A stretch of 64,000 nucleotides of DNA from Albimonas donghaensis (GTDB lineage: Bacteria; Pseudomonadota; Alphaproteobacteria; Rhodobacterales; Rhodobacteraceae): assembly GCF_900106695.1 (NCBI RefSeq), contig NZ_FNMZ01000003.1:372001-436000 (forward strand). The letters run 5' to 3'. A program made the translations under genes and the position numbers. Shown piece by piece: positions 3,838-63,098 of this stretch. Below the pieces are notes generated by a model, which had not been told where the DNA came from, searched no databases, and saw only the letters and a program-made list of their open reading frames with translations. The stretch's first letter is position 1, and every line of letters begins with the position of its first letter.

Positions 3838-5938
3838 GGTGATCACATGCCTCCGGGACGGGCATGACGCGACGCTGGTCGCCGCGGCGGCGCTGATCTG
3901 CGCGCTCGGCGCGCTGGTTTCGACGCGCATGTTCAACAAGGTGCCGGGCGGTGAGGTTGCCGGTCGCAAGGCGTGGCACGTCCTCCAGGCAGGGCTGACC
4001 GGCGGCGCCACGATCTGGACCACGCATTTCGTCGCCATGATCGGTTTCGATCCCGGCGTGCCGGTGGCCTATCACCCGCTGCTCACCATGCTGTCGCTCG
4101 TCCTCGCCATCGCCGGGGTGGCCGGCGGGCTCTGGATGATCGCCCGCTCCCGCGGAACCCTGTTGGCGGAAGCCGGGGGCGCGGTCATCGGGCTCGCGGT
4201 GCTGGGGGCCCATTACATCGGCATGGCGGGGCTGCGGCTGTCGGCGGACCTGGTCTGGCATCCCGGAATGGTCATCGCCTCGGTCGTCCTGGCGCTGGGT
4301 TTCGGGGCGCTGACCGCCAATCGCATCGCCCGGCCGCGGACCCGGTTCTGCTGGTACGGCGGGGTGGTCGCCTTCTCGCTGGCCATCGCTTCGGGTCATT
4401 TCACGGCCATGGGCGCGCTGACCGTCGCGCCCCATACGGTCGAGGTTCCGCTAGACGGGCTCGTGCCGGACCGGACCCTGGCCATGCTCGTGCTGCTGGT
4501 GATGGGCCTGTTCCTGCTATTCGGCTTCAGCAGTTTCCTGATCGGCGAAGATGCGCGACGCGACGCCGCCGAACGCCTGCGGCGCCAATCCCTGCACGAT
4601 CCGCTCACCGACCTGCCCAACCGCACCATGCTGCGCAACCGGCTGTCGCAGCTGCTCGATTCCGCCGGCTGCGGCGAGGTGATCGTCGCCGTGGGGATAG
4701 ACCTGGACCGCTTCAAGCCCATCAACGACGTGCACGGTCATGCCGGGGGCGACGCCCTGCTGCTCGCGCTGTCCGATCGGATGACCGGCCTGCTCGGTCC
4801 GCAGGAAATGGTGTGCCGGAACGGCGGAGACGAGTTCATCGCGCTCAAGGCCGATGCCAAGGGACCAGAGGACGCGATCGCCTTCGCGCGACGCCTGCAC
4901 GACGCGCTCACCCGCCCGGTGGACTGGCAGGGTTTCCGGCTGTCGGTGGGCGCGAGCCTCGGCGTGGCGCTCGCGCCCCAGCATGGGGGGGAGGTCGAGA
5001 CGCTGCTGGGGCGCGTCGATCTCGCCATGTATCGCGCCAAGGCGTCGTCCGAGCAGGTGGTGATCTACGACCCCGCCATGGACGAAGTCAGCCGCGCCCG
5101 CAGCCTGATGGCGGTGGAGCTGCGCGCAGCGCTCGAACTCGGCCAGCTCGAAGTGCATTTCCAGGCCCAGAGCGACATCCCCACCCGCGATCTCGTGGGG
5201 TTCGAAGCCCTCGCCCGCTGGCGTCACCCGGAGCGCGGCATGATCCCGCCGTCCGACTTCATCCCGATCGCCGAAGCCACCGGCCTGATCCGGGAGCTTG
5301 GGGTCTGGGTGCTCAACGCCGCCTGCCGCGAGGCCGTCTCCTGGGCGGAGCCGCTGCGCGTCGCGGTCAACGTGGCGCCCCAGCAGCTGGCCCAGCCCGA
5401 TTTCGCGGAAACCGTGCTCGACGCGCTGCTGGTCACGGGGCTGGAGCCCTCGCGCCTGGAGCTGGAGGTGACCGAGGCCAGCCTGATCTCCGACAAGCGA
5501 CGGGCGGAGGAAGTGATGGCCTCGGTCAAGGCCGCCGGCGTGCGCATCGCGATGGACGATTACGGGACGGGCTACGCGTCGCTCTCGACCCTGCAGACCT
5601 TTCCCTTCGACAAGATCAAGATCGACCAGAGCTTCATCAAGCCGCTGGGCCGGGACCGTCAGGCGGCCGCCATCGTGCGCTCCACCCTGATCCTGGGGGA
5701 GGCTCTGGGGATCCCCGTGCTGGCCGAGGGGGTGGAGACGGAGACGCAGCTCGCCTTCCTCGACCGCGCGCGGTGCCGGGAGGCGCAGGGCTACCTGTTC
5801 GGAAAACCCTGCGGCGCCGCCGAAACCGCCGAACGGGTCAGGGAGCAATGGGCCCGCAAGCGCGCCGAGTTCGCGCGGGGCATGTCCGACGCCGCCGCGC
5901 CCGGCGCCGCCGCGGCCGCAGCCGCGGCGGGAAGATGA
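3830..5938 (+). CDS. MHYT-GGDEF-EAL cyclic-di-GMP signalling protein
   Basis: The 702-residue protein has an N-terminal seven-helix MHYT sensor (about 1-235) with three motif copies: THFVAM near residue 64, AHYIGM near 127 and GHFTAM near 188. MHYT domains are thought to bind copper and sense gases. A GGDEF domain follows, with intact GGDEF near residue 331, and then an EAL domain (FEALARW near 458, EVTEA, DDYGTGYASL). The residues four to eight before GGDEF are not RxxD, so the product-inhibition I-site looks absent. Key EAL acids appear kept, so both synthesis and hydrolysis of cyclic-di-GMP are possible. The TTG start is supported by the family-like N-terminus. The C-terminus ends in an alanine tract. 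Confidence 0.93.
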   Translation: MIEVITCLRDGHDATLVAAAALICALGALVSTRMFNKVPGGEVAGRKAWHVLQAGLTGGATIWTTHFVAMIGFDPGVPVAYHPLLTMLSLVLAIAGVAGGLWMIARSRGTLLAEAGGAVIGLAVLGAHYIGMAGLRLSADLVWHPGMVIASVVLALGFGALTANRIARPRTRFCWYGGVVAFSLAIASGHFTAMGALTVAPHTVEVPLDGLVPDRTLAMLVLLVMGLFLLFGFSSFLIGEDARRDAAERLRRQSLHDPLTDLPNRTMLRNRLSQLLDSAGCGEVIVAVGIDLDRFKPINDVHGHAGGDALLLALSDRMTGLLGPQEMVCRNGGDEFIALKADAKGPEDAIAFARRLHDALTRPVDWQGFRLSVGASLGVALAPQHGGEVETLLGRVDLAMYRAKASSEQVVIYDPAMDEVSRARSLMAVELRAALELGQLEVHFQAQSDIPTRDLVGFEALARWRHPERGMIPPSDFIPIAEATGLIRELGVWVLNAACREAVSWAEPLRVAVNVAPQQLAQPDFAETVLDALLVTGLEPSRLELEVTEASLISDKRRAEEVMASVKAAGVRIAMDDYGTGYASLSTLQTFPFDKIKIDQSFIKPLGRDRQAAAIVRSTLILGEALGIPVLAEGVETETQLAFLDRARCREAQGYLFGKPCGAAETAERVREQWARKRAEFARGMSDAAAPGAAAAAAAAGR

Positions 5939-53244: not shown

Positions 53245-53254
53245 TGTGATCACA
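53245..53254. promoter_or_regulatory. TGTGATCACA palindrome at the aminotransferase stop codon
   Basis: The perfect 10-bp palindrome contains the TGA stop of the minus-strand aminotransferase gene. It is the leftmost of twelve similar palindromes in 53.2-62.9 kb. Confidence 0.4.
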
Positions 53255-54644
53255 TCAGCCCTTCGCGGGTGAGCTGATCGGCCAGATCGTCCAGCGTCTT
53301 GCGGGCGCGGGCGGCCATGTCGTCCATCTCGTCTTCCGTGATCACAAAGGGCGGGCACAGGATCATGGTGTCGCCCACGGCCCGCATCACCAACCCGTTG
53401 GCCACGCAGAGATCCCGGCAACGCGCCCCGGCCCCGACTTCCTCGCCGAAGCGTTCGCCCGTCGCGGGGTTCTTCGCCAGCTCGATGGCGCCGAGGAAGC
53501 CCCTGGTCCGGGTCTCCCCCACCATCGGATGATCCGCGAGCCCGCCCCACAGCGTCGCCAGCTTCGGGGCCAGCACGTCGCGCACCCGCTCCACCAGCTT
53601 CTCCTCCTGCAGGATCCGCAGGCTCGCGAGTCCCGCCGCCGCCGCCGCCGGATGCCCGGAATAGGTGTAGCCGTGGTAGAACTCGCCGGCCTTCTCCATC
53701 ACCGGCCCCGCCACGCGGTCGGAGATCAGCACGCCCCCCATCGGCTGATAGCCCGAGGTCATGCCCTTGGCGATCGGCATCAGGTCGGGGGTCACGCCAT
53801 AGGTCTCCGAGCCCCACCAGGACCCGGTGCGCCCGAAGCCGCAGATCACCTCGTCGGCGACCAGAAGGATGTTCCGCTCCCGACAGATACGCGCGATTTC
53901 AGGCCAGTAGCTCTCGGGCGGGATGATGACCCCGCCGGCGCCCTGGATCGGCTCGGCGATGAAGGCGGCGACGTTGTCTTCGCCCAGCTCGTCGATCTTC
54001 GCTTCGAGCTGGCGGGCGCGGGCGAGCCCGAATTCCTCCGGCGAAAGGCCGGTGTCGCGACCCTCGCCATACCAGTAGGGCTGGTCGATATGGGCGAAAC
54101 CGGGAAAGGGCAGGCCGGATTGCGCATGCATCCCGGACATCCCGCCGAGGCTCGCCGCCGCCGCCGTCGAGCCGTGATAGCCGTTATGCCGGCCGATGAA
54201 GATCTTCTTCGACGGCTGGCCCATGCAGTCCCAGTAGACCCGGGCCATGCGGAACACGGTGTCGTTGGATTCCGAGCCCGAGTTGGTGAAGAACACCCGG
54301 TTCATATGCGGCGGCGCGACCTGGGCCAGCGCCTCCGAGAACTCGGCGGCCGCGGGATGGGTGCACTGGAAAAAGGTGTTGTAGTAGGGCAGTTGGCGGA
54401 GCTGGCGGGTCACCGCCTCGACGATTTCCTCACGCCCGTAGCCGACATTCACGCACCACAGGCCGGACATGCCGTCCATGATCCGGGCGCCCTCGGAATC
54501 GGTCAGCCACACGCCCTGCGCGGATGTGATCACACGCGCGCCCTTCGCCGCCAGGTCGGCGGTGTCGGTGAACGGGTGCCAGTGATGGGCGGCGTCCATC
54601 GCCTGGTAATCGGCGGTCGAGCGGGGGTTGCTCAGAACATTCAT
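53250..54644 (-). CDS. Class III aminotransferase, putrescine/diamine-type candidate
   Basis: The 464-residue PLP enzyme has FFTNSGSESNDTVFRMARVYW, the catalytic-Lys segment MPIAKGMTSGYQPMGGVLISD (Lys near residue 292), ADEVICGFGRTGSWWG and the end FVITEDEMDDM. It fits omega-aminotransferases that act on diamines or omega-amino acids with pyruvate or 2-oxoglutarate, such as SpuC. The adjacent agmatinase-type gene and GntR regulator point to polyamine degradation, but beta-alanine or aromatic amines are possible. ATG at 54644 chosen. A 74-base gap separates it from the GntR gene; both read leftward. Confidence 0.93.
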   Translation of the reverse strand: MNVLSNPRSTADYQAMDAAHHWHPFTDTADLAAKGARVITSAQGVWLTDSEGARIMDGMSGLWCVNVGYGREEIVEAVTRQLRQLPYYNTFFQCTHPAAAEFSEALAQVAPPHMNRVFFTNSGSESNDTVFRMARVYWDCMGQPSKKIFIGRHNGYHGSTAAAASLGGMSGMHAQSGLPFPGFAHIDQPYWYGEGRDTGLSPEEFGLARARQLEAKIDELGEDNVAAFIAEPIQGAGGVIIPPESYWPEIARICRERNILLVADEVICGFGRTGSWWGSETYGVTPDLMPIAKGMTSGYQPMGGVLISDRVAGPVMEKAGEFYHGYTYSGHPAAAAAGLASLRILQEEKLVERVRDVLAPKLATLWGGLADHPMVGETRTRGFLGAIELAKNPATGERFGEEVGAGARCRDLCVANGLVMRAVGDTMILCPPFVITEDEMDDMAARARKTLDDLADQLTREGLM

Positions 54645-54718
54645 GGCGAGGTCCTTGGCGGGTGGGTCGCCGCCGCCCCGGGTCGGAGGCGGTTCCAGCG
54701 AGTCGTGATCGGGTCCGG

Positions 54719-55426
54719 TCAGGCCTGGTCGAGGCCCTCGTTGGACAGCATGGTCAGGCCCTGGCGCACGTCGGCGCGGATGGCGAGGCGCAGTCCCGCC
54801 TCGTCCCCCGCGGCCAGCGCGGCGATGGCCTTGCGGTGATAGTCGGCGACCCGCCCCATGCCGATCCGGGCGTAGAGCGCGCGCATCGAGGGGCCGGTCT
54901 GCAGCCACACCGTCTCCGCGAGCGCGAGCATGGCGGGGGCGTGGGCGCGCAGGTAAAGCGTCCGGTGAAACTCAAGGTTTCCGCGCACATAGGCGGCGGC
55001 GTCGCCGGATTTCAGGTGCTGGTCGATCTCGGCATCCATGCGTTTCAGCCGCTCGATCAGGCTGAAATGGGCGCGCGGCAGGGCCCGGGCGGCGAGCTCG
55101 GGTTCCAGCAGCGCGCGGATCGAGGCCAGCTCCTCCACCCGCGCCGGGCTGAGGATCGGGGCGGAGACGCGGCCCGAGGCCGAGATCGCCAGCGCGCCCT
55201 CGGCGGCCAGCCGGCGCACCGCCTCGCGCGCCGGGGTCATGGAGACGCCGAGTTCCCCCGCGACGCCGCGCAGGGTGACATGTTCGCCGGGCGCCATCTC
55301 TCCGTGCAGGATTCGGCGGCGCAGGGCCTTGTAGACGCGCTCATGCGCAGGGCCGGCGCCCTCGTCCAGGAGCGCGCGGACCGGGCGAACGGCCGGAGAC
55401 GGAGTGGTTGCATCGGCGAGGGTCAT
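54719..55426 (-). CDS. GntR-family transcriptional regulator with FCD domain
   Basis: The 235-residue protein has an N-terminal winged helix (RVYKALRRRILHGEMAPGEHVTLRGVAGELGVSMTPAREAVRRLAAEGAL, about 30-85). An FCD-type ligand domain follows (about 100-225; RALLEPELAARAL, NLEFHRTLYLRAHAPAMLALAE and DYHRKAIAALAAGDEAGLRLAIRADVRQG), with His and Asp residues able to bind a metal. It lies between the aminotransferase and agmatinase-type genes. A 12-bp palindrome starts eight bases before its start codon, so it very likely represses itself. Its inducer is unknown; polyamine or purine-derived acids fit the surroundings. Confidence 0.94.
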   Translation of the reverse strand: MTLADATTPSPAVRPVRALLDEGAGPAHERVYKALRRRILHGEMAPGEHVTLRGVAGELGVSMTPAREAVRRLAAEGALAISASGRVSAPILSPARVEELASIRALLEPELAARALPRAHFSLIERLKRMDAEIDQHLKSGDAAAYVRGNLEFHRTLYLRAHAPAMLALAETVWLQTGPSMRALYARIGMGRVADYHRKAIAALAAGDEAGLRLAIRADVRQGLTMLSNEGLDQA

Positions 55427-55433
55427 GGGCTAA

Positions 55434-55445
55434 TTGTGATCACAA
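55434..55445. promoter_or_regulatory. Probable GntR operator between divergent gntR and agmatinase genes
   Basis: TTGTGATCACAA is a perfect 12-bp palindrome, eight bases upstream of the GntR ATG and 63 bases before the agmatinase-type ATG. Its core recurs as TGTGATCACA or a one-base variant at eleven other places in 53.2-62.9 kb. Placement over the ribosome-binding site suggests repression of the regulator. Confidence 0.7.
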
Positions 55446-55508
55446 ATGGGCGGCCTGTCAATCCGGGCCTTGCCCCCCCGCCTTTGCCCGCCGTTTCCGG
55501 AGCCCGTC

Positions 55509-56468
55509 ATGTCCGATCCGCACCGCCGCGACTACGCCTTCCTCGCCGAAGGAAACCAGGCCGTGACCCATGACGAGCCCATGTGGTCCGGGGCGCTCAG
55601 CTTCTGCCGCCGACGCTATGCGCGCGACCTGGCGGGCGTCGACGTGGCGGTGGTGGGCGTGCCCTACGACCAGTCGGTGACCAACCGGCCGGGCGCGCGA
55701 TTCGGGCCGCGGGGGGTGCGCGCCGCGTCCTCGCAACTGGGCTGGTCGCGGGCCTGGCCCTCGGCCTTCGACCCGTTCGAGCGCATGGCCGTGGTCGACT
55801 GGGGCGACGTCCTGATCCCCCATGGCCATCCGGCCGAGGTGCCCGCGGCGATCGAGGCGGCGATGACTTCGATCCTCGACGCCGGCGCGACTCCGCTGGC
55901 CATCGGCGGCGACCATTTCACCACCTATCCCAGCATCAAGGCCCATGCGAAACGGCTCGGCCGCCCGGTGGCGCTGGTGCATTTCGATGCGCATTCAGAC
56001 CTTTGGGATGGCGGCGGGCCGGACTGGATCGACCACGGCACCATGTTCCGCGACGGGATCGCGGGCGGAGAGATCGACGCCGCGCGCTCCATCCAGGTGG
56101 GCATCCGCACCACCAATGACGACACGATGGGGGTCGAGACCTATGACGCGATCAAGGTCCATGAGACCGGGATCGCCGCCACCATCGCCGCGATCCGGGC
56201 GCGGGTCGGGGACGCGCCGGTCTACCTGACCTTCGACATCGACTGCCTCGACCCGGCCTTCGCGCCGGGCACCGGCACGCCGGTCTGCGGCGGGCTGGCG
56301 AGCTGGCAGGCGCTGGGCATCCTGCGCGGGCTGAGCGGGCTGAACCTGGTCGGCATGGACGTGGTGGAGGTGGCGCCGGCCTATGACGTGGGCGAGATCA
56401 CCGCGCTCGCCGGCGCCACCGTGGCGCTGCAGCTCCTGTGCCTTTACGCCGAGCGCAAGCCGGCGTGA
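55509..56468 (+). CDS. speB: Agmatinase-family ureohydrolase
   Basis: The 319-residue protein is a manganese ureohydrolase that removes urea from a guanidino compound; agmatine to putrescine is the usual assignment. It shows the three metal signatures: IGGDHFTTYP, VHFDAHSDLWDG and TFDIDCLDPAFAPGTGTPVCGG. The latter also holds the substrate loop. Guanidinopropionase and guanidinobutyrase are close relatives, so the exact substrate is not certain. The ATG at 55509 starts the family N-terminus. Putrescine made here could feed the neighbouring aminotransferase. Its stop codon lies inside a copy of the palindrome. Confidence 0.93.
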   Translation: MSDPHRRDYAFLAEGNQAVTHDEPMWSGALSFCRRRYARDLAGVDVAVVGVPYDQSVTNRPGARFGPRGVRAASSQLGWSRAWPSAFDPFERMAVVDWGDVLIPHGHPAEVPAAIEAAMTSILDAGATPLAIGGDHFTTYPSIKAHAKRLGRPVALVHFDAHSDLWDGGGPDWIDHGTMFRDGIAGGEIDAARSIQVGIRTTNDDTMGVETYDAIKVHETGIAATIAAIRARVGDAPVYLTFDIDCLDPAFAPGTGTPVCGGLASWQALGILRGLSGLNLVGMDVVEVAPAYDVGEITALAGATVALQLLCLYAERKPA

Positions 56469-56498
56469 TCACACCCCCGGCGACAGGGGTGTGATCAC
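56465..56498. terminator. Bidirectional hairpin between speB and ade built from two palindromes
   Basis: GTGATCACACCCC (56465-56477) pairs perfectly with GGGGTGTGATCAC (56486-56498), a 13-bp stem with an 8-base loop, between convergent stops. Each arm contains a GTGATCAC palindrome. It can act as a terminator in both directions, but no T-tract follows. Confidence 0.65.
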
Positions 56499-56501
56499 AG
56501 G

Positions 56502-58295
56502 TCATACGGTCACGGAAACCGGCTGGAAGGCGGTGACGTCCACCAATCCCTGATCGGAGATCCGCAGCGCCGGGATCACCACCAGCGCCAGCAGCGAATG
56601 CTGCATGAAGGCGTTGTTGAGCGTGCAGCCGCAGGCCCGCATGGCGTCGGCCATGGCGTCGGCTTGGGCGGCGACCTCCTCGGCCGGGGAATCCGACATC
56701 AGGCCGGCGACCGGCAGGGGCACCAGGGCCGCCTCCGCCCCGTCCTTCCATACCGCGACGCCGCCGCCGATGTCCTGCAAGCGGTTGGCGGCGGCGGCCA
56801 TATCCTCGGCCGAGGTGCCCACCACGATCAGGTGGTGGCTGTCATGCGCGACCGTCGAGGCCACCGCGCAGGGCCCCTCATAGCCGAAGCCCGAGACCAG
56901 CGCCGTCACCACCCTGCCCTCGCCGCGATGCCGCTCGACCACCGCGATCAGGCAGACGTCGCCCTCCGCCCCCTCGGGCGCGAGACGGCCGTCGCGGACA
57001 GGGATCTCCATCTCCAGCGCCTTTGTGGGGGCCTGGTTCTCCACCACCCCGATGACCCGGGCGCGCGTCGCGTTGGCCCCTTCGGGCGCTGTGATCACGA
57101 AATCCTCGGCCACGACCTTGCGGCCGACCTTCACGGTGTTCTTGGCCTCCGCCGGATAGACGAAGCCCGGCCGCGGCGCGACCATCGCGCCCTTCTCGGC
57201 CACCACCTCGCCCCGCGACACCACCAGCTCCGCCGAGAACCCGGCCAGCGAGGGTGTGATCACGAAATCCGCCCGCCGACCCGGCGCGATGGAGCCGATC
57301 TCCCGCTCCATCCCGAAATGGGTGGCGGCGTTCAGCGTCGCCATCTGCAGGGCCGTGATCGGGCGCAGGCCCTGGGCGATCGCATGGCGCAGCACCCGGT
57401 CCATATGCCCGTCGCGCACCAGCGTCGCCGCATAGCAGTCGTCGGTGCAGAGCACGAAGTTGCGCGGGTCCGCCCCGCCCTCGGTCACCGCGCGCACCTG
57501 CTCGGCGACGTCGTGCCAGGCGGAGCCCAGCCGCAGCATCGCCCGCATCCCCTGCCGCACGCGGGCCAGCGCGTCCTCGGCCCGCGTGCCCTCATGGTCG
57601 TCGGCCGGCCCCGCGGCGGCGTAGGCGTGGAAATCGCGCCCCAGGTCGGGCGAGGCGTAGTGCCCGCCGACCGTCTTGCCGGCCCGCATCGCCTCGGCGA
57701 TCTCGCCGACCATGCGGGCGTCGCCGGCCGCCACGCCGGGGAAATTCATCACCTCGCCCAGACCGACGATATTGGGCCAGGTCATCATCTCGGCGATCTC
57801 GTCCGGCCCGAACTCGGCCCCCGCCACCTCCAGTCCGGGGGCGGAGGGCACGCAGGACGGCGCCTGCACGAAAACATTGGTCGGTTGCAGCATGGCCTCG
57901 TCATGCATCAGCCGAACGCCCTTCAATCCCAGCACGTTGGCGATCTCATGCGGGTCGATGAACAGCGAGGTCGAGCCATGCGGCGCCACCGCGCGCACGA
58001 ATTCGGTGACCGTCAGCATCCCCGATTCCACGTGCATATGCGCGTCGATCAGGCCCGGAGACAGCACCCGCCCGGCGGCCTCGATCACCACCGTGTCGGG
58101 CCCGATGCAGGGCGAGGCGTCCGGCCCGCAATAGGCGAAGCGCCCGTCGGCGATGGCCAGATCGGTGGCCGGGATCATCTCTCCCGACTGCACATTGGCC
58201 CAGGTTCCGCCCCGCACGACCATGTCGGCGGGGGCGCGTCCGGCGGCGACGGCGATCAGGCGGGGGGCGGCGTCGGCCCAGCTTTTCGGGGACAT
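56502..58295 (-). CDS. ade: Adenine deaminase
   Basis: Adenine deaminase of the amidohydrolase type converts adenine to hypoxanthine with a binuclear metal site. The 597-residue protein shows GLIDAHMHVESGMLTV (first metal His pair, about residues 84-88), FIDPHEIANVLG, GLGEVMNFPGV with the bridging-type Glu, GGHYA and VLCTDDCYAATL. It also has the C-terminal domain typical of this long form (HDSHHLIVVGTS). It is convergent with speB and separated from the MFS gene by 73 bases. Two of its V-I-T codon triplets form palindrome copies (57090 and 57255). Confidence 0.95.
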   Translation of the reverse strand: MSPKSWADAAPRLIAVAAGRAPADMVVRGGTWANVQSGEMIPATDLAIADGRFAYCGPDASPCIGPDTVVIEAAGRVLSPGLIDAHMHVESGMLTVTEFVRAVAPHGSTSLFIDPHEIANVLGLKGVRLMHDEAMLQPTNVFVQAPSCVPSAPGLEVAGAEFGPDEIAEMMTWPNIVGLGEVMNFPGVAAGDARMVGEIAEAMRAGKTVGGHYASPDLGRDFHAYAAAGPADDHEGTRAEDALARVRQGMRAMLRLGSAWHDVAEQVRAVTEGGADPRNFVLCTDDCYAATLVRDGHMDRVLRHAIAQGLRPITALQMATLNAATHFGMEREIGSIAPGRRADFVITPSLAGFSAELVVSRGEVVAEKGAMVAPRPGFVYPAEAKNTVKVGRKVVAEDFVITAPEGANATRARVIGVVENQAPTKALEMEIPVRDGRLAPEGAEGDVCLIAVVERHRGEGRVVTALVSGFGYEGPCAVASTVAHDSHHLIVVGTSAEDMAAAANRLQDIGGGVAVWKDGAEAALVPLPVAGLMSDSPAEEVAAQADAMADAMRACGCTLNNAFMQHSLLALVVIPALRISDQGLVDVTAFQPVSVTV

Positions 58296-58368
58296 CTCGG
58301 GCGCTCCGGGGTTCGAGGAAACCGGCGCGGAGCCTGCCCTGCGGGGCTCCGGCGCGCAAGCGTGGGCG

Positions 58369-59517
58369 TCAGGCCGGCAGCGGCCCGCCGTCCCACATCT
58401 TGCGCGCGGAGACGGCGAGGATCAGCGCGGCGGCGGACATCGCGACGGCGATCCACCAGGCGCCGGCGCCCAGCCAGGGATAGGCGATCGCGGCGGCGCC
58501 CGAGGCCACGGCCATCAGGATGCCGGTGCCGAAGGCCTGCATCACCGCCTGCGCCGCGCCGGCCAGCCGGTCTGGCGCGCCGCGGGCGATGAAGGCGATG
58601 ATCCCCAGATGCGCCGCCGCGAAGGTCAGCGCGTGGCTGGCCTGCAGGACCCACAGGAAGGCGCCCTCCGGATCGAAGGTCATCGCGGCCCAACGCACCA
58701 CGCCGACGCCGCCGGCCAGCGCGATGGCGCCGGAGGGGCGGAACCGGCGCACCAGCCACGGCCCGAACGCGGCCATCAGCACGACCTCGACCGCGACCCC
58801 TGCGGCCCAGAGCATCCCGATGGTCGCCTCCGGCACGCCCAGAGCCCGCCAATGCACGGATCCATATGCGTAAATCACCCCGTGCGAGGCCTGCGCCAGC
58901 CCCGCCGCGGCGGTGAAGGTCAGGAACACGCGGCCGGTGACCAGCCGCCGCATTTCGGCGAGCGTCGGCCGCTCGGCGCCCTTGACCTTGCCGCCGCCGG
59001 GATGGGTGGCCCCGAGCGCCGCGGCGGCCAGAAGGCACAACACGATGACCCACAGGATCGCGTCCGTCCCGGCGAAGGCCAGCGCCGCGCCCAGCCCGAG
59101 ATTCATCGCGAGGAAGGCGGCCGAGCCCACCGCCCGCACCGGCGCGTATTCGAACCGGTGAACCCGTGCCGCGGCCCCGGTCAGCGCGTCCGAGATCGGG
59201 ATCATCGCCGAGAACACGCCCGCCGTCAGCATGGTCAGCGCCAGCAGCGCCAGCTTCGAGCCGACCGCCAGATGCGCGACGAACAGCGCCGCCCCGACCC
59301 CCGCGACCAGCCCCAGCGTCAGCCGCCGCGCCTCGCGTCGGTCGGCCAGCACCGGCAGGCCGAGCCCCGCGGCCAGCCGCAACACGATTCCCGCGCCCAG
59401 ATAGGCCCCGATCTCGCCATCCGACAGGCCCCAGTCGGACAGCCACAGCGGCCAGAACGGCAGATGCGCGCCCAATGCGCCGAACAGCGCGGCGTAGAAG
59501 CCGCCGGTACGGATCAT
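58369..59517 (-). CDS. MFS transporter, MFS_1-like (HcaT/nucleoside type)
   Basis: The inner-membrane protein has about twelve helices. It starts MIRTGGFYAALFGALGAHLPFWPLWLSDWGLSDGEIGAYLG, the usual opening of the MFS_1-like group that includes HcaT and nucleoside permeases. RFEYAPVRAVGSAAFLAMN and LGVPEATIGMLWAAGVAVEVVLMA follow. From the ATG at 59517 it has 382 residues. A GTG at 59541 would add eight residues and overlap the moeA stop by four bases; this coupled start is a serious alternative and lies in a palindrome copy. The substrate is unknown; a purine or nucleoside fits the adjacent ade. Confidence 0.9.
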   Translation of the reverse strand: MIRTGGFYAALFGALGAHLPFWPLWLSDWGLSDGEIGAYLGAGIVLRLAAGLGLPVLADRREARRLTLGLVAGVGAALFVAHLAVGSKLALLALTMLTAGVFSAMIPISDALTGAAARVHRFEYAPVRAVGSAAFLAMNLGLGAALAFAGTDAILWVIVLCLLAAAALGATHPGGGKVKGAERPTLAEMRRLVTGRVFLTFTAAAGLAQASHGVIYAYGSVHWRALGVPEATIGMLWAAGVAVEVVLMAAFGPWLVRRFRPSGAIALAGGVGVVRWAAMTFDPEGAFLWVLQASHALTFAAAHLGIIAFIARGAPDRLAGAAQAVMQAFGTGILMAVASGAAAIAYPWLGAGAWWIAVAMSAAALILAVSARKMWDGGPLPA

Positions 59518-59532
59518 GGCGGCGGCGCGGGG

Positions 59533-59542
59533 TGTGATCACA
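59533..59542. promoter_or_regulatory. TGTGATCACA palindrome at the moeA-MFS junction
   Basis: A perfect copy covers the moeA stop codon and the possible GTG start of the MFS gene. Part of the clustered palindrome family of 53.2-62.9 kb. Confidence 0.4.
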
Positions 59543-60812
59543 AACCGAAACTCGCATAGGGGATGAAGCGGACCGGATCGCCCTCGGCCACGTCGGGGCC
59601 GGGATCGGGCAGGTCGATCAGCCCCGTGGACCATGCGAGGCCCGAGATCAAGCCCGAGCCCTCGGAGCGGAACGGCTCGGCCCGACCCTCGGCGGAGATG
59701 CGGGCGCGCAGGAACTCGCGACGTCCGGGTTTGCGGGTCTTGGCGAAGCCGGCGGGGAGATCGAAGCCCTGGGGCGCCCGCCATCCCGCGCCCGCCAGCG
59801 CCAGCAGCGCCGGGCGGGCGAAGATCAGCGCGCAGGTGAAGGCGGCGACCGGGTTGCCCGGCAGGCCGAACACCGCGGCGCCGTTCCATGCGGCCAGCGC
59901 CAGCGGCCGTCCCGGCTTCACCGCGATGCGCCATGCGGTCAGCGCGCCGGCCGCGCGCAGGGTGGCGGAGACGTGGTCCTCGTCCCCCGCGCTGGCCCCG
60001 CCGGAGGTCAGGATCGCGTCGGCCTCCGCCCCCCCGCGATCCAGCGCGGCGCGCACCGCGCCCGCGTCGTCGCGCGCCCGGCCGAGGTCCACCGGATCGA
60101 ACCCCCAGGCCCGGATCAGCGCCAGCAGCATGGGTCGGTTGGCGTCGATGGTGGCCTCGGGCGGTCCCGGCGGATCGGCGAGCTCGTCCCCGGTGGAGAG
60201 CACCGCCACCCGCAGCCGCCGGCGCACGGGAACGCGGTCCAGCCCCCCCGCCGCCAGCAGCGCCAGGTCCTGCGGGCGCAGGACATGGCCCGCGGGCAGA
60301 AGCGGGGCGCCGGCGGCGAAGTCCTCGCCCCTGGCGCGCGTGTTGGCCCCGCGCTTCAGGCCGGGGCGGAGCCGCAATTCACCCCCGGCCAGCCCGATAT
60401 CCTCTTGCAATACAACGGTATCCGTCCTAGCGGGAAGCGCGGCGCCGGTCAGGATGCGCACGCCCTCGCCGGGGCCGGCCTGGCCCTGGAACGCCGCGCC
60501 GGCGGCCGCGCGGCCGGGGATCAGCCGCAGACGCTCGGGGTCCGCTCCGGTCAGCGAGGCATGGGCGAAGGCGTAGCCGTCCACCGCCGAATTCGCCGCC
60601 GGAGGGTTGGGCCGGCCCGCCGCGACCGGCGCCGCCAGCACGCGGCCCGCGCCCTGGGTCAGCGGAACCGTCTCCGCCCCCGTCACCACCGCGCAGCGTT
60701 CGCGCAGCAGGTCCAGCGCCCGGTCCACCGCCAGCCAGTCCACTCCCGGCGGCAACGCGAAGCAGTCGTTGCGCAGGGCCGGCGGATCGGCGGGAGGGGG
60801 CGGCGCGTTCAT
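59538..60812 (-). CDS. moeA: Molybdopterin molybdenumtransferase MoeA
   Basis: MoeA inserts molybdate into adenylated molybdopterin. The 424-residue protein shows NPPAANSAVDGYAFAHA, with the catalytic Asp region, GEGVRILTGAALPARTDTVVLQED, VLSTGDEL and TSGGASAGDEDHV, and VAIKPG-like RIAVKPGRPLALA with VFGLPGNPVAAF. Length is normal. It overlaps the mobB stop by four bases and is the third gene of the leftward mobA-mobB-moeA run. Confidence 0.96.
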   Translation of the reverse strand: MNAPPPPADPPALRNDCFALPPGVDWLAVDRALDLLRERCAVVTGAETVPLTQGAGRVLAAPVAAGRPNPPAANSAVDGYAFAHASLTGADPERLRLIPGRAAAGAAFQGQAGPGEGVRILTGAALPARTDTVVLQEDIGLAGGELRLRPGLKRGANTRARGEDFAAGAPLLPAGHVLRPQDLALLAAGGLDRVPVRRRLRVAVLSTGDELADPPGPPEATIDANRPMLLALIRAWGFDPVDLGRARDDAGAVRAALDRGGAEADAILTSGGASAGDEDHVSATLRAAGALTAWRIAVKPGRPLALAAWNGAAVFGLPGNPVAAFTCALIFARPALLALAGAGWRAPQGFDLPAGFAKTRKPGRREFLRARISAEGRAEPFRSEGSGLISGLAWSTGLIDLPDPGPDVAEGDPVRFIPYASFGL

Positions 60813-61312
60813 CCGATCCCCAGCTCGTCCAGGATGAAATCGGCGATGGAGGGCACGTCGTTGAGGTCCAGCACCGGCCGGTCCGTGATCACATCCGCAT
60901 CCGCCGCCACCGCCCGCACCGTCGGGTCGCCCGGAGCCATCAGCTCCCGCCCCAGGCCGGGGCGATGCACCTCCACCTTGGGCTGAGGGCCGCGCTTCCA
61001 TCCTTCCGTGATCACAAGATCCGCGGGGGCCATCTGCGCCAGCAGTTCGTCCAGCGAGGGCTCGGGCGCCCCGCGCAGCTCGCGCATCAGCGCCCAGCGG
61101 GTTCCGGACGCGATCAGCACCTCGCGCGCCCCGGCCTCGCGGTGGCGATAGCTGTCCGCCCCCTCCCGGTCCAGGTCGAAGCCGTGATGCGCGTGCTTGA
61201 GGGTCGATACCGCCAGCCCGCGGCCGGAAATCTCCGCCACCAGCCGCTCCACCAGCGTGGTCTTGCCGGCGTTCTTCCAGCCGGTGATCCCCCAGACCGG
61301 CGAGCGGCTCAT
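60809..61312 (-). CDS. mobB: Molybdopterin-guanine dinucleotide synthesis protein MobB
   Basis: MobB is a GTP-binding protein that assists MobA in making the guanine dinucleotide form of the cofactor. The 167-residue protein has the P-loop GWKNAGKTTLVERLV, LKHAHHGFDLDREGADSYRHREAGA (typical of MobB) and VITEGWKRG. It overlaps mobA by four bases upstream and moeA by four downstream, so the three are co-translated. Two V-I-T triplets coincide with palindrome copies at 60884 and 61007. Confidence 0.95.
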   Translation of the reverse strand: MSRSPVWGITGWKNAGKTTLVERLVAEISGRGLAVSTLKHAHHGFDLDREGADSYRHREAGAREVLIASGTRWALMRELRGAPEPSLDELLAQMAPADLVITEGWKRGPQPKVEVHRPGLGRELMAPGDPTVRAVAADADVITDRPVLDLNDVPSIADFILDELGIG

Positions 61313-61965
61313 CGCCCCGCCTCCTCCGCCGTCGGCCCGGGGGCGAGATGCGCGGCCCACAGGCGCTCGGCCTCGGCCAGGTCCTCGGGGGCGTTGACGT
61401 TGAAGAAAGGGTCGAAGGGCTCGGCCTCGAACATCGCCTCGGCGCAGCCATGCCGCGCGGTCCATTCCACCACCCGCCGCATCCCGCCGGCCAGGCAGGC
61501 GCGCAGATCCTCGCGCAGGCCCGCGTCCCAGAGCCCGAAGGTCGGATGCCGCGCGGTCCCGAGCCGGGGATCCGGGGTCACGGCCATGGCCAGCGGGGTC
61601 CCCGCCGCCTCCGCCGCGTCGATCAGCCGGGGCACGAGGTCGCGCGGGAAGAAGGGCGTGTCCCAGGCCACGGTGACGATCCCGCGCGCCCCGCGCTCCG
61701 CCGCCCAGTCCAGGCCGGCCAGCACGCCGGCCAGCGGTCCGGGCCGGTCGGGGGCGGCATCGGGGATCACCTCCAGCCCCCAGGCCGAGAACCGCGCCCG
61801 CGGCCCGTTGGCGTTCAGCGCGAAGGCGGGGACCTGAGGGGACAGGCGGGCGAGCGCATGGGCGAGCAGCGGCTGGCGGCCCACCATCTCCAGCCCCTTG
61901 TCGCCTCCGCCCATGCGGCGGGATTCGCCTCCGGCGAGGATCACCCCGTAAATGTCGGTCAGCAT
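61309..61965 (-). CDS. mobA: Molybdenum cofactor guanylyltransferase MobA
   Basis: MobA attaches GMP to molybdopterin, forming the guanine dinucleotide cofactor used by DMSO-reductase-family enzymes such as formate dehydrogenase. The 218-residue protein has the nucleotidyltransferase motif VILAGGESRRMGGGDKGLE, GPLAGVLAGLDWA, VAWDTPFFP and FFNVNAPEDLAEAE. The ATG at 61965 gives a normal length; the frame is open upstream through noise. A 233-base GC-rich gap separates it from fdhD. Confidence 0.95.
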   Translation of the reverse strand: MLTDIYGVILAGGESRRMGGGDKGLEMVGRQPLLAHALARLSPQVPAFALNANGPRARFSAWGLEVIPDAAPDRPGPLAGVLAGLDWAAERGARGIVTVAWDTPFFPRDLVPRLIDAAEAAGTPLAMAVTPDPRLGTARHPTFGLWDAGLREDLRACLAGGMRRVVEWTARHGCAEAMFEAEPFDPFFNVNAPEDLAEAERLWAAHLAPGPTAEEAGR

Positions 61966-62198
61966 CGCGTCTCCTTCGCGCGGCGCGCCGGTCGCCCATG
62001 TCGAGGGCGAACCCTGGAAAGGGGGTCCGGCGGCGCGCCGTTTTCGCCGGGCATCATCGGCGCCCTCGCCGCCAACGCAACGCCCGGCGCCCGGAATTCG
62101 CGTCGCCGCCCGCCCCGGCGCCGCCGGGCGCCCCGGGCGACAGGCCGCGCGGGCGCCCGGGCGCGGTTCGCGAGCGGGTGGTCGCGCGGCCCTCGGGG

Positions 62199-63098
62199 TC
62201 AGGCCTCGGCGCCTCGCCCGCCCTTGCGCCCGGACCGTCGCGGCTCGTCCGCCACGCCGGCCGGATCGGCGTCGCGCAGCAGCCGCGCTTCTCCCGACAG
62301 GCACAGGAACCGCCGCCCGCGCAGCCGTCCGACCAGGGTCAGCCCCACCTGCCGCGCGATCTCCACCCCCCAGGCCGTGAACCCGGAGCGCGAGGCCAGC
62401 GCCGGCGCCCCGATCAGCGCGCATTTGATCACCATCTCCGAGGTCAGCCGCCCGGTGGTGTAGATCAGCTTGTCCGACGCGTCCTCGCCCCGCAGCCGCA
62501 GCCAGCCGGCGATCTTGTCCACCGCGTTGTGGCGGCCGACATCCTCCATGTAGACCAGCGGCTCGGCCCCCCTGCACAGCACCGTGCCGTGGATCGCGCC
62601 GGCCTCCAGGTAGAGGCTGGGCATCTGGTTGATGGCCTTCGACAGGGCGTAGAGATCCGAGGTCCGCACCTCCAGCTCCGGCAGGACCAGGCCGTCCAAC
62701 CCCTCCATCATGTCGCCGAAAACCGTGCCCACCGCGCAGCCCGAGGTGCGGGTGCGCCGCGCCAGCTTGTCCTCGTAGTCGGTTTCGCGCGCGGTGCGGA
62801 CCACGACCACTTCCAGGTCGTCGTCATGCTCCACGGCCGTGATCACATCGTCCGGGCGCAGCATCCCCTGGTTGGCGAGATAGCCGACCGCCAGGCATTC
62901 CGGGTGGTCGCCGATGGTCATCACCGTCACGATCTCGCGGCCGTTGAGCCAGAGCGTCAGGGGACGTTCCTCGATCACCCGCGTCGCGCGAGGGGCGCCG
63001 GTTTCGTCGAACCCCTCGACCTCGCGGGTCAGGCCGGGCGCGTGCGGGTCGGGGAGGATGCGGGCGGGCGGGCGAAGCATCGCCGGCGCTGGGGTCAT
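62199..63098 (-). CDS. fdhD: Formate dehydrogenase accessory sulfurtransferase FdhD
   Basis: FdhD passes sulfur to the molybdenum cofactor of formate dehydrogenases. The 299-residue protein shows LTLWLNGREIVTVMTIGDHPECLAVGYLANQG, SGCAVGTVFGDMMEG, the VYMEDVGRHNAVDKIAGWL motif and YTTGRLTSEMVIKCA. Its active-site loop has one Cys (SGCAVG) rather than the two separated by two residues described for the E. coli protein. It is one gene upstream of mobA on the same strand, consistent with joint maturation of a formate dehydrogenase encoded elsewhere. A V-I-T palindrome lies at 62838. Confidence 0.95.
   Translation of the reverse strand: MTPAPAMLRPPARILPDPHAPGLTREVEGFDETGAPRATRVIEERPLTLWLNGREIVTVMTIGDHPECLAVGYLANQGMLRPDDVITAVEHDDDLEVVVVRTARETDYEDKLARRTRTSGCAVGTVFGDMMEGLDGLVLPELEVRTSDLYALSKAINQMPSLYLEAGAIHGTVLCRGAEPLVYMEDVGRHNAVDKIAGWLRLRGEDASDKLIYTTGRLTSEMVIKCALIGAPALASRSGFTAWGVEIARQVGLTLVGRLRGRRFLCLSGEARLLRDADPAGVADEPRRSGRKGGRGAEA

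Follow-up and report, generated by a model that had tools for sequence, protein, structure and literature searches.

The locus described here raises a simple question: why are twelve copies of one palindrome, with the core GTGATCAC, packed into 9.6 kb of a bacterial chromosome, mostly inside genes? The DNA analysed (the window) is a 64,000-nucleotide (64-kb) stretch of the Rhodobacteraceae bacterium Albimonas donghaensis, positions 372,001-436,000 of contig NZ_FNMZ01000003.1 (C9 below), and the source genome was searched as 5.01 Mb in 30 contigs. A first-pass annotation, made from the sequence alone, had noticed the cluster and proposed that it may mark a regulon or a nucleoprotein array. Judged by sequence comparison, the motif is the operator of a likely AkgR ortholog, the GntR/FCD regulator whose gene lies within the array. 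The array itself is, on balance, probably a set of AkgR-type operators that acts on its own locus and that has so far been found only in this species.

Motif counting placed 12 cores within 53,245-62,847, at exactly the starts annotated, five of them perfect (TGTGATCACA) and seven with a single change at an outer base (CGTGATCACA or its complement; Table 1). Three cores lie elsewhere in the window, at 3839, 44843 and 48180; the annotation had this number and the first position right, but set the other two (44844 and 48176) a few bases off. It had also expected less than one core in 64 kb from base composition, which agrees with 100 dinucleotide shuffles of the window (mean 0.69, maximum 5). 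Nor is the 10-mer dense across the genome, the annotation's own test for coincidence: there are 134 cores and 23 distinct places with a YGTGATCACA-type site (TGTGATCACA, CGTGATCACA or its complement), 12 of which fall in the array. None of 20,000 random placements of these 23 places put 12 sites in 9.6 kb, and the chance that a random block of the array's size touches the gntR gene is 0.002. Exact cores are about 16-fold enriched (12 in 9,693 array positions vs 19 in 253,123 background positions, a background that includes loci chosen for their sites), while near-matches in the array are not (one mismatch, 5 vs 6.05 expected; two mismatches, 47 vs 44). The only 10-mer deviation in excess is C at the outer base, with 15 vs 0.6 expected in the window and ten loci of the same genome, 8 vs 1.6 in the family genome G257 and 2 vs 1.1 in G187. 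No weak or decaying sites can thus be made out, as would be the case if perfect sites had been under strong recent selection or if some process made exact copies. Two perfect copies in the genome lie outside both the array and the suc promoter (L003 10048 and L006 10001), also on C9, and both are in-frame Val-Ile-Thr (V-I-T) codons; one sits in a LysR-like reading frame, and the other frame reads GADLVITGRIADPAL.

The identity of the motif follows from its position in relatives. The gntR product matches PF00392 and PF07729 (GntR and FCD domains) above cut-off, and orthologs at 60-66% identity were found in 16 of 22 other family genomes searched. The annotation's apparent operator of this gene proved to be widely conserved: a core lies just 5' of the gntR ortholog at 50 of 80 named Rhodobacteraceae loci (43 perfect) and in 11 of 18 further relatives. 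At 37 of those 50 loci a TTGAC starts exactly 17 bases before the site, a spacing that fits a repressor site over a promoter. Elsewhere in the A. donghaensis genome, two pairs of sites, 21 and 20 bp apart, lie upstream of sucC (L001) and sdhC (L002). The loci examined contain 36 rows of paired sites with a spacing of 20-21 bp, or about 24 distinct places by our count because loci overlap; every row falls no more than 600 bp upstream of sucC or sdhC. Sites with the GTGATCAC core are therefore found both at the regulator's own promoter and at tricarboxylic acid cycle promoters. AkgR is linked to 2-oxoglutarate. In a tree, the window protein groups with Cereibacter (C. ovatus and C. flavus, the characterised R. 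sphaeroides AkgR itself being left out) and other family AkgR rows, and a 97/100 branch separates them from a paralog, GntR2. PMC6365646 gives the same core as one of the sites bound by AkgR, a Rhodobacter sphaeroides activator. Because of the conserved upstream operator, the suc and sdh pairs, the tree and the motif cited for AkgR, the window protein is likely an AkgR ortholog.

As far as tested, the array itself appears to have been added in this species, for the most part within coding sequence. The two congeners compared (G001 and G002) keep the aminotransferase-gntR-agmatinase order at 79-86% protein identity, and their only sites at this locus are the operator and one copy inside gntR. 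This second copy, read as R-V-I-T-E, lies 95 bp from the promoter site (L061 2486-2590, L062 3643-3747) and is missing from the window gntR. The sites at the ends of the aminotransferase, agmatinase and adenine deaminase genes are absent in both congeners, the only two genomes compared for them, and the congener adenine deaminase region is on a different contig, where the 20 kb read contain no core. No array was found in the gntR regions (16-20 kb) of 17 relatives, where the most was three extra sites, two of them the suc pair (G014). The 80 named loci (1.35 Mb, many ending at contig ends) hold none either, and no more than two extra YGTGATCACA-type sites each; ten have two, spaced 21 bp apart in all ten. 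No such site turned up in the adenine deaminase, fdhD and mobB loci of relatives (29 of each) or in 9 GntR2 loci, but the GntR2 loci of G187 and G257 have one aminotransferase site each. The annotation's proposal is partly supported: the cluster is real at the DNA level and one copy is the operator of gntR, but the conserved AkgR-type sites elsewhere are at suc, sdh and the regulator's own gene. To judge from the sequence, the cluster may mark either a regulon or a nucleoprotein array. Genome-wide counts in relatives covered the perfect 10-mer only and would miss another genus's array if it consisted of one-off copies at a distance from akgR, and genes in the G-labelled genomes were called by simple open reading frame (ORF) rules. 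Among the literature matches listed, none reports a comparable operator array, and two E. coli papers on the mapping of transcription factors mention intragenic sites.

These comparisons also bear on another kind of site array. The parS, matS and Noc sites organise chromosomes, and an array serving another protein in that manner might spread over coding and intergenic DNA alike, as seen here; all eight perfect copies in the genome also sit on C9, a single 593-kb contig. We nevertheless consider such a role very improbable, as the motif equals the AkgR operator, the relatives examined (including both congeners) have no array at this locus, and no partition-type gene is among those annotated at 47.9-64.0 kb, although the binding protein was searched for no further.

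Most of the extra sites fall within genes. As annotated, copies occur at stop codons and junctions and seven are on V-I-T codons: three lie over stop codons, one past a stop, one upstream of gntR, and seven are in-frame V-I-T (two each in the aminotransferase, adenine deaminase and mobB, and one in fdhD). Their Thr codon is ACA (three) or ACG (four) and, as had been pointed out, never ACC. We compared these positions with ortholog sets made up of the best 29 loci from searches of 61 family genomes, to which the two congeners were added for adenine deaminase (31). At four of the five positions that could be followed family-wide, no ortholog has V-I-T (0/29, 0/31, 0/31 and 0/29). At adenine deaminase 345 the residues are ILT in 20 orthologs, ILS in five, VLT in four and other in two; those at position 400 vary. 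MobB 100 is VLV in 14, VLI in 12, ILI in two and ILV in one, and MobB 141 is likewise never V-I-T. At the two aminotransferase positions both congeners have VIS and VMT, respectively. Six of the seven positions align without gaps (2-9 orthologs per position), with small indels in 3 of 9 aligned orthologs at MobB 141. The comparison with orthologs took in ten of the eleven extra sites, and at none of these do the orthologs have a site. The absence of V-I-T from orthologs at four positions indicates that protein residues changed along with the DNA motif. V-I-T density from automatic gene calls was not used, as these set frames on the wrong strand across part of the moeA-fdhD region.

Copies in V-I-T codons are not confined to this genome. 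TGTGATCACA occurs in 236 of 248 family genomes searched (A. donghaensis included), mostly in 1-15 copies, and is most frequent in G257 (85), G187 (35), G143 (29) and G060 (20). Sites in these four were read because of the high counts, with frames assigned by automatic ORF choice. In-frame V-I-T accounts for 19 of the 24 copies read in G187, 17 of 29 in G143, and 26 of 34 plus 2 of 4 further copies in G257, but for none of the four read in G060, which are mostly promoter sites. Eight control palindromes gave no occurrences in 40 loci (~0.8 Mb). In regions chosen for their sites, GTG ATC ACA encodes 14 of 24 V-I-T in G187 (0.6 expected from codon use) and 23 of 42 in G257 (1.1 expected). In-frame V-I-T copies are thus a trait of some family lineages. 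In G143, a glutamine amidotransferase gene has three sites, and an adenine deaminase (L313 7037-8902, 39% identical to that of the window) has four copies of TGTGATCACA, three starting within 42 bp. Regional concentrations of TGTGATCACA are seen in G257 (23 in 320 kb; C1 5.08-5.40 Mb, L317-L332) and G187 (20 in 280 kb; C18, L297-L310). A nearby GntR gene as the general cause of the clusters in G143, G187 and G257 was considered and is not supported; an array centred on the regulator is so far seen in this species alone.

Could such a palindrome iterate without any regulator, like HIP1 of cyanobacteria, driven by mutation or repair and perhaps with a DNA methyltransferase involved? The motif is sharp and, in A. 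donghaensis and G257, deviates in excess at the outer base only, as described for HIP1 in PMC4390886; it has GATC at its centre, and G143, G187 and G257 carry 29-85 copies, largely in-frame V-I-T. HIP1 has a high genome-wide frequency, whereas here 5.01 Mb holds 23 places. Outside the array and the suc/sdh pairs only 7 remain in ~5 Mb, against ~12 expected from an extrapolated Markov model, which leaves no excess across the genome. Nor would a drive be expected to stop at 9.6 kb, and the suc, sdh and gntR sites are placed at promoters. A drive of this kind is therefore quite unlikely. A broader idea is that in Rhodobacteraceae the AkgR operator can spread within coding sequence as an in-frame Val-Ile-Thr "word", through DNA-level selection strong enough to override conserved residues, giving a regulator-centred array that acts as a single locus-wide nucleoprotein switch here and a genome-wide pattern in G143, G187 and G257; we regard this as possible but rather doubtful.

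How the AkgR-type array might have arisen and work is suggested by its neighbours. The paralog GntR2 lies within ~2 kb of the aminotransferase gene in 10 of 11 paralog loci (eight relatives, G187 and G257; not G015), whereas in the genus of the window AkgR stands beside that gene. In L337-L344, L311 and L323, the GntR2 near this same aminotransferase is 39-45% identical. AkgR thus occupies the place held by GntR2 in relatives, and the array may be the trace of its takeover of that locus. AkgR dimers would bind the array sites, and the promoter copy would mediate autoregulation; the protein probably represses its own gene, since the site is just downstream of the TTGAC box and adjoins the start codon. 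Through the sites within genes and at their ends, protein made on the spot would occupy the 9.6 kb around its gene. It could there hinder or loop transcription of the aminotransferase, agmatinase, adenine deaminase, MFS transporter and molybdenum cofactor genes, and could tighten the regulator's own feedback. Extra sites might instead serve as decoys that bind AkgR and set its free level with no effect on the host genes. The 12 array sites about match the 11 other YGTGATCACA-type places in the genome, and several are well inside genes or at their ends, away from promoters. Yet a decoy needs no particular place, while the array surrounds the regulator gene, and protein residues were changed; we think it unlikely.

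Several observations weigh against an AkgR array that acts on its locus. The exact upstream core is absent from 30 of the 80 named loci and 7 of the 18 further relatives. Array sites show no helical phasing and lack the 20-21 bp pairing typical of suc and sdh. FdhD 85 is V-I-T in three of 29 orthologs (these use ACC or ACT, so none makes a site), the ortholog comparison covers every extra site but that at the moeA end (59533), and the V-I-T codons show a level of substitution only moderately higher than the average of the gene (percentile 0.59-0.98). The many intragenic copies in G143, G187 and G257 form clusters that are not centred on akgR, which means that proximity to the regulator gene is not a general rule. 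Finally, the synonymous-codon shuffle within array genes, which the annotation had suggested as a check, gave a mixed answer: the seven cores observed exceed the mean of 4.68, but 267 of 5000 shuffles reach at least 7. The last result favours a coincidence of Val-Ile-Thr residues and codon use, as does the fact that G187 and G257 share V-I-T at the same aminotransferase positions, there too as a site. However, five sites are not V-I-T, orthologs lack V-I-T at four positions, and exact cores are enriched while near-matches are not. We find this coincidence scarcely credible and reject it on the ortholog residues; the codon shuffle alone is weak evidence. Taken with the orthologs, the shuffle implies that codon choice is mildly odd and that the V-I-T tripeptides are the unusual part.

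Table 1. Palindromic sites and genes of the array locus (window coordinates)
Feature	Position	Strand	Basis
TGTGATCACA over aminotransferase stop codon; no site in either congener	53245..53254		
CGTGATCACA; aminotransferase V-I-T codons 434-436; both congeners VMT	53337..53346		
TGTGATCACA; aminotransferase V-I-T codons 38-40; both congeners VIS	54525..54534		
TGTGATCACA; conserved predicted operator, 8 bases 5' of gntR; TTGAC box starts 17 bases before	55435..55444		
CGTGATCACA over agmatinase stop codon; hairpin arm (partner 56490)	56464..56473		
TGTGATCACA, 2 bp past adenine deaminase stop; hairpin arm (partner 56464)	56490..56499		
CGTGATCACA on minus strand; adenine deaminase V-I-T codons 400-402; V-I-T in 0/31 orthologs	57090..57099		
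CGTGATCACA on minus strand; adenine deaminase V-I-T codons 345-347; orthologs V-I-T 0/31, ILT 20/31	57255..57264		
TGTGATCACA over moeA stop codon, ~16 bp upstream of MFS gene	59533..59542		
CGTGATCACA; mobB V-I-T codons 141-143; V-I-T in 0/29 orthologs	60884..60893		
CGTGATCACA; mobB V-I-T codons 100-102; orthologs VLV/VLI 26/29, ILI/ILV 3/29	61007..61016		
CGTGATCACA; fdhD V-I-T codons 85-87; V-I-T in 3/29 orthologs, ACA/ACG in 0	62838..62847		
gntR, GntR/FCD regulator, AkgR clade	54719..55426	-	Pfam PF00392 + PF07729, tree, orthologs
Class-III aminotransferase, PRK07480 type	53250..54644	-	profile search
Agmatinase-family ureohydrolase	55509..56468	+	profile search
Adenine deaminase	56502..58295	-	TIGR01178 above cut-off
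MFS transporter; no site inside	58369..59517	-	profile search
MoeA-like molybdotransferase	59538..60812	-	best models below own cut-offs
MobB	60809..61312	-	TIGR00176 above cut-off
MobA; no site inside	61309..61965	-	TIGR02665 above cut-off
FdhD	62199..63098	-	PF02634

Two of the sites form the arms of a perfect 13-bp inverted repeat (56464-56499) between the convergent agmatinase and adenine deaminase genes. The predicted hairpin (-28.8 kcal/mol, z -3.7) is a possible two-way terminator without a T run. Insertion of a mobile repeat was considered and rejected: read by eye, the flanks share little beyond the motif, apart from 16 bp that the two adenine deaminase sites have in common and the inverted flanks at 56464/56490.

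Bacterial operators are usually viewed as few and located at promoters, and intragenic binding is often taken as noise. Here, exact operator copies recur in coding sequence around the regulator's own gene, against protein conservation. Eleven extra copies at the cost of changed residues suggest that regulatory DNA can reshape the coding sequence of an entire locus. The array offers a natural test both of the function of intragenic binding and of how regulators come to control new loci.

Auxiliary operators of the lac O2 type are operator copies inside a regulated gene, and the array likewise puts operator copies inside genes, but with eleven extra copies spread over nine kilobases and several genes. 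HIP1, as described in PMC4390886, is also a GATC-centred palindrome with deviations biased to its outer bases; it is frequent over whole genomes, whereas the excess here is confined to 9.6 kb and the regulator promoters. The same palindrome GTGATCAC lies upstream of PS417_07240, a GntR-family gene of the Pseudomonas simiae deoxyribonate cluster; in PMC6365646 that site is described in the promoter region, and the protein is 32% identical to AkgR. The closest system is AkgR itself, a GntR-family activator of Rhodobacter sphaeroides (Imam et al. 2015, as cited in PMC6365646). The core is the same, the window protein groups with rows from Cereibacter (formerly Rhodobacter), and many family members have sites at suc, sdh and the regulator's own promoter. 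What sets the A. donghaensis locus apart from this pattern is its eleven additional sites, most of them inside coding sequence.

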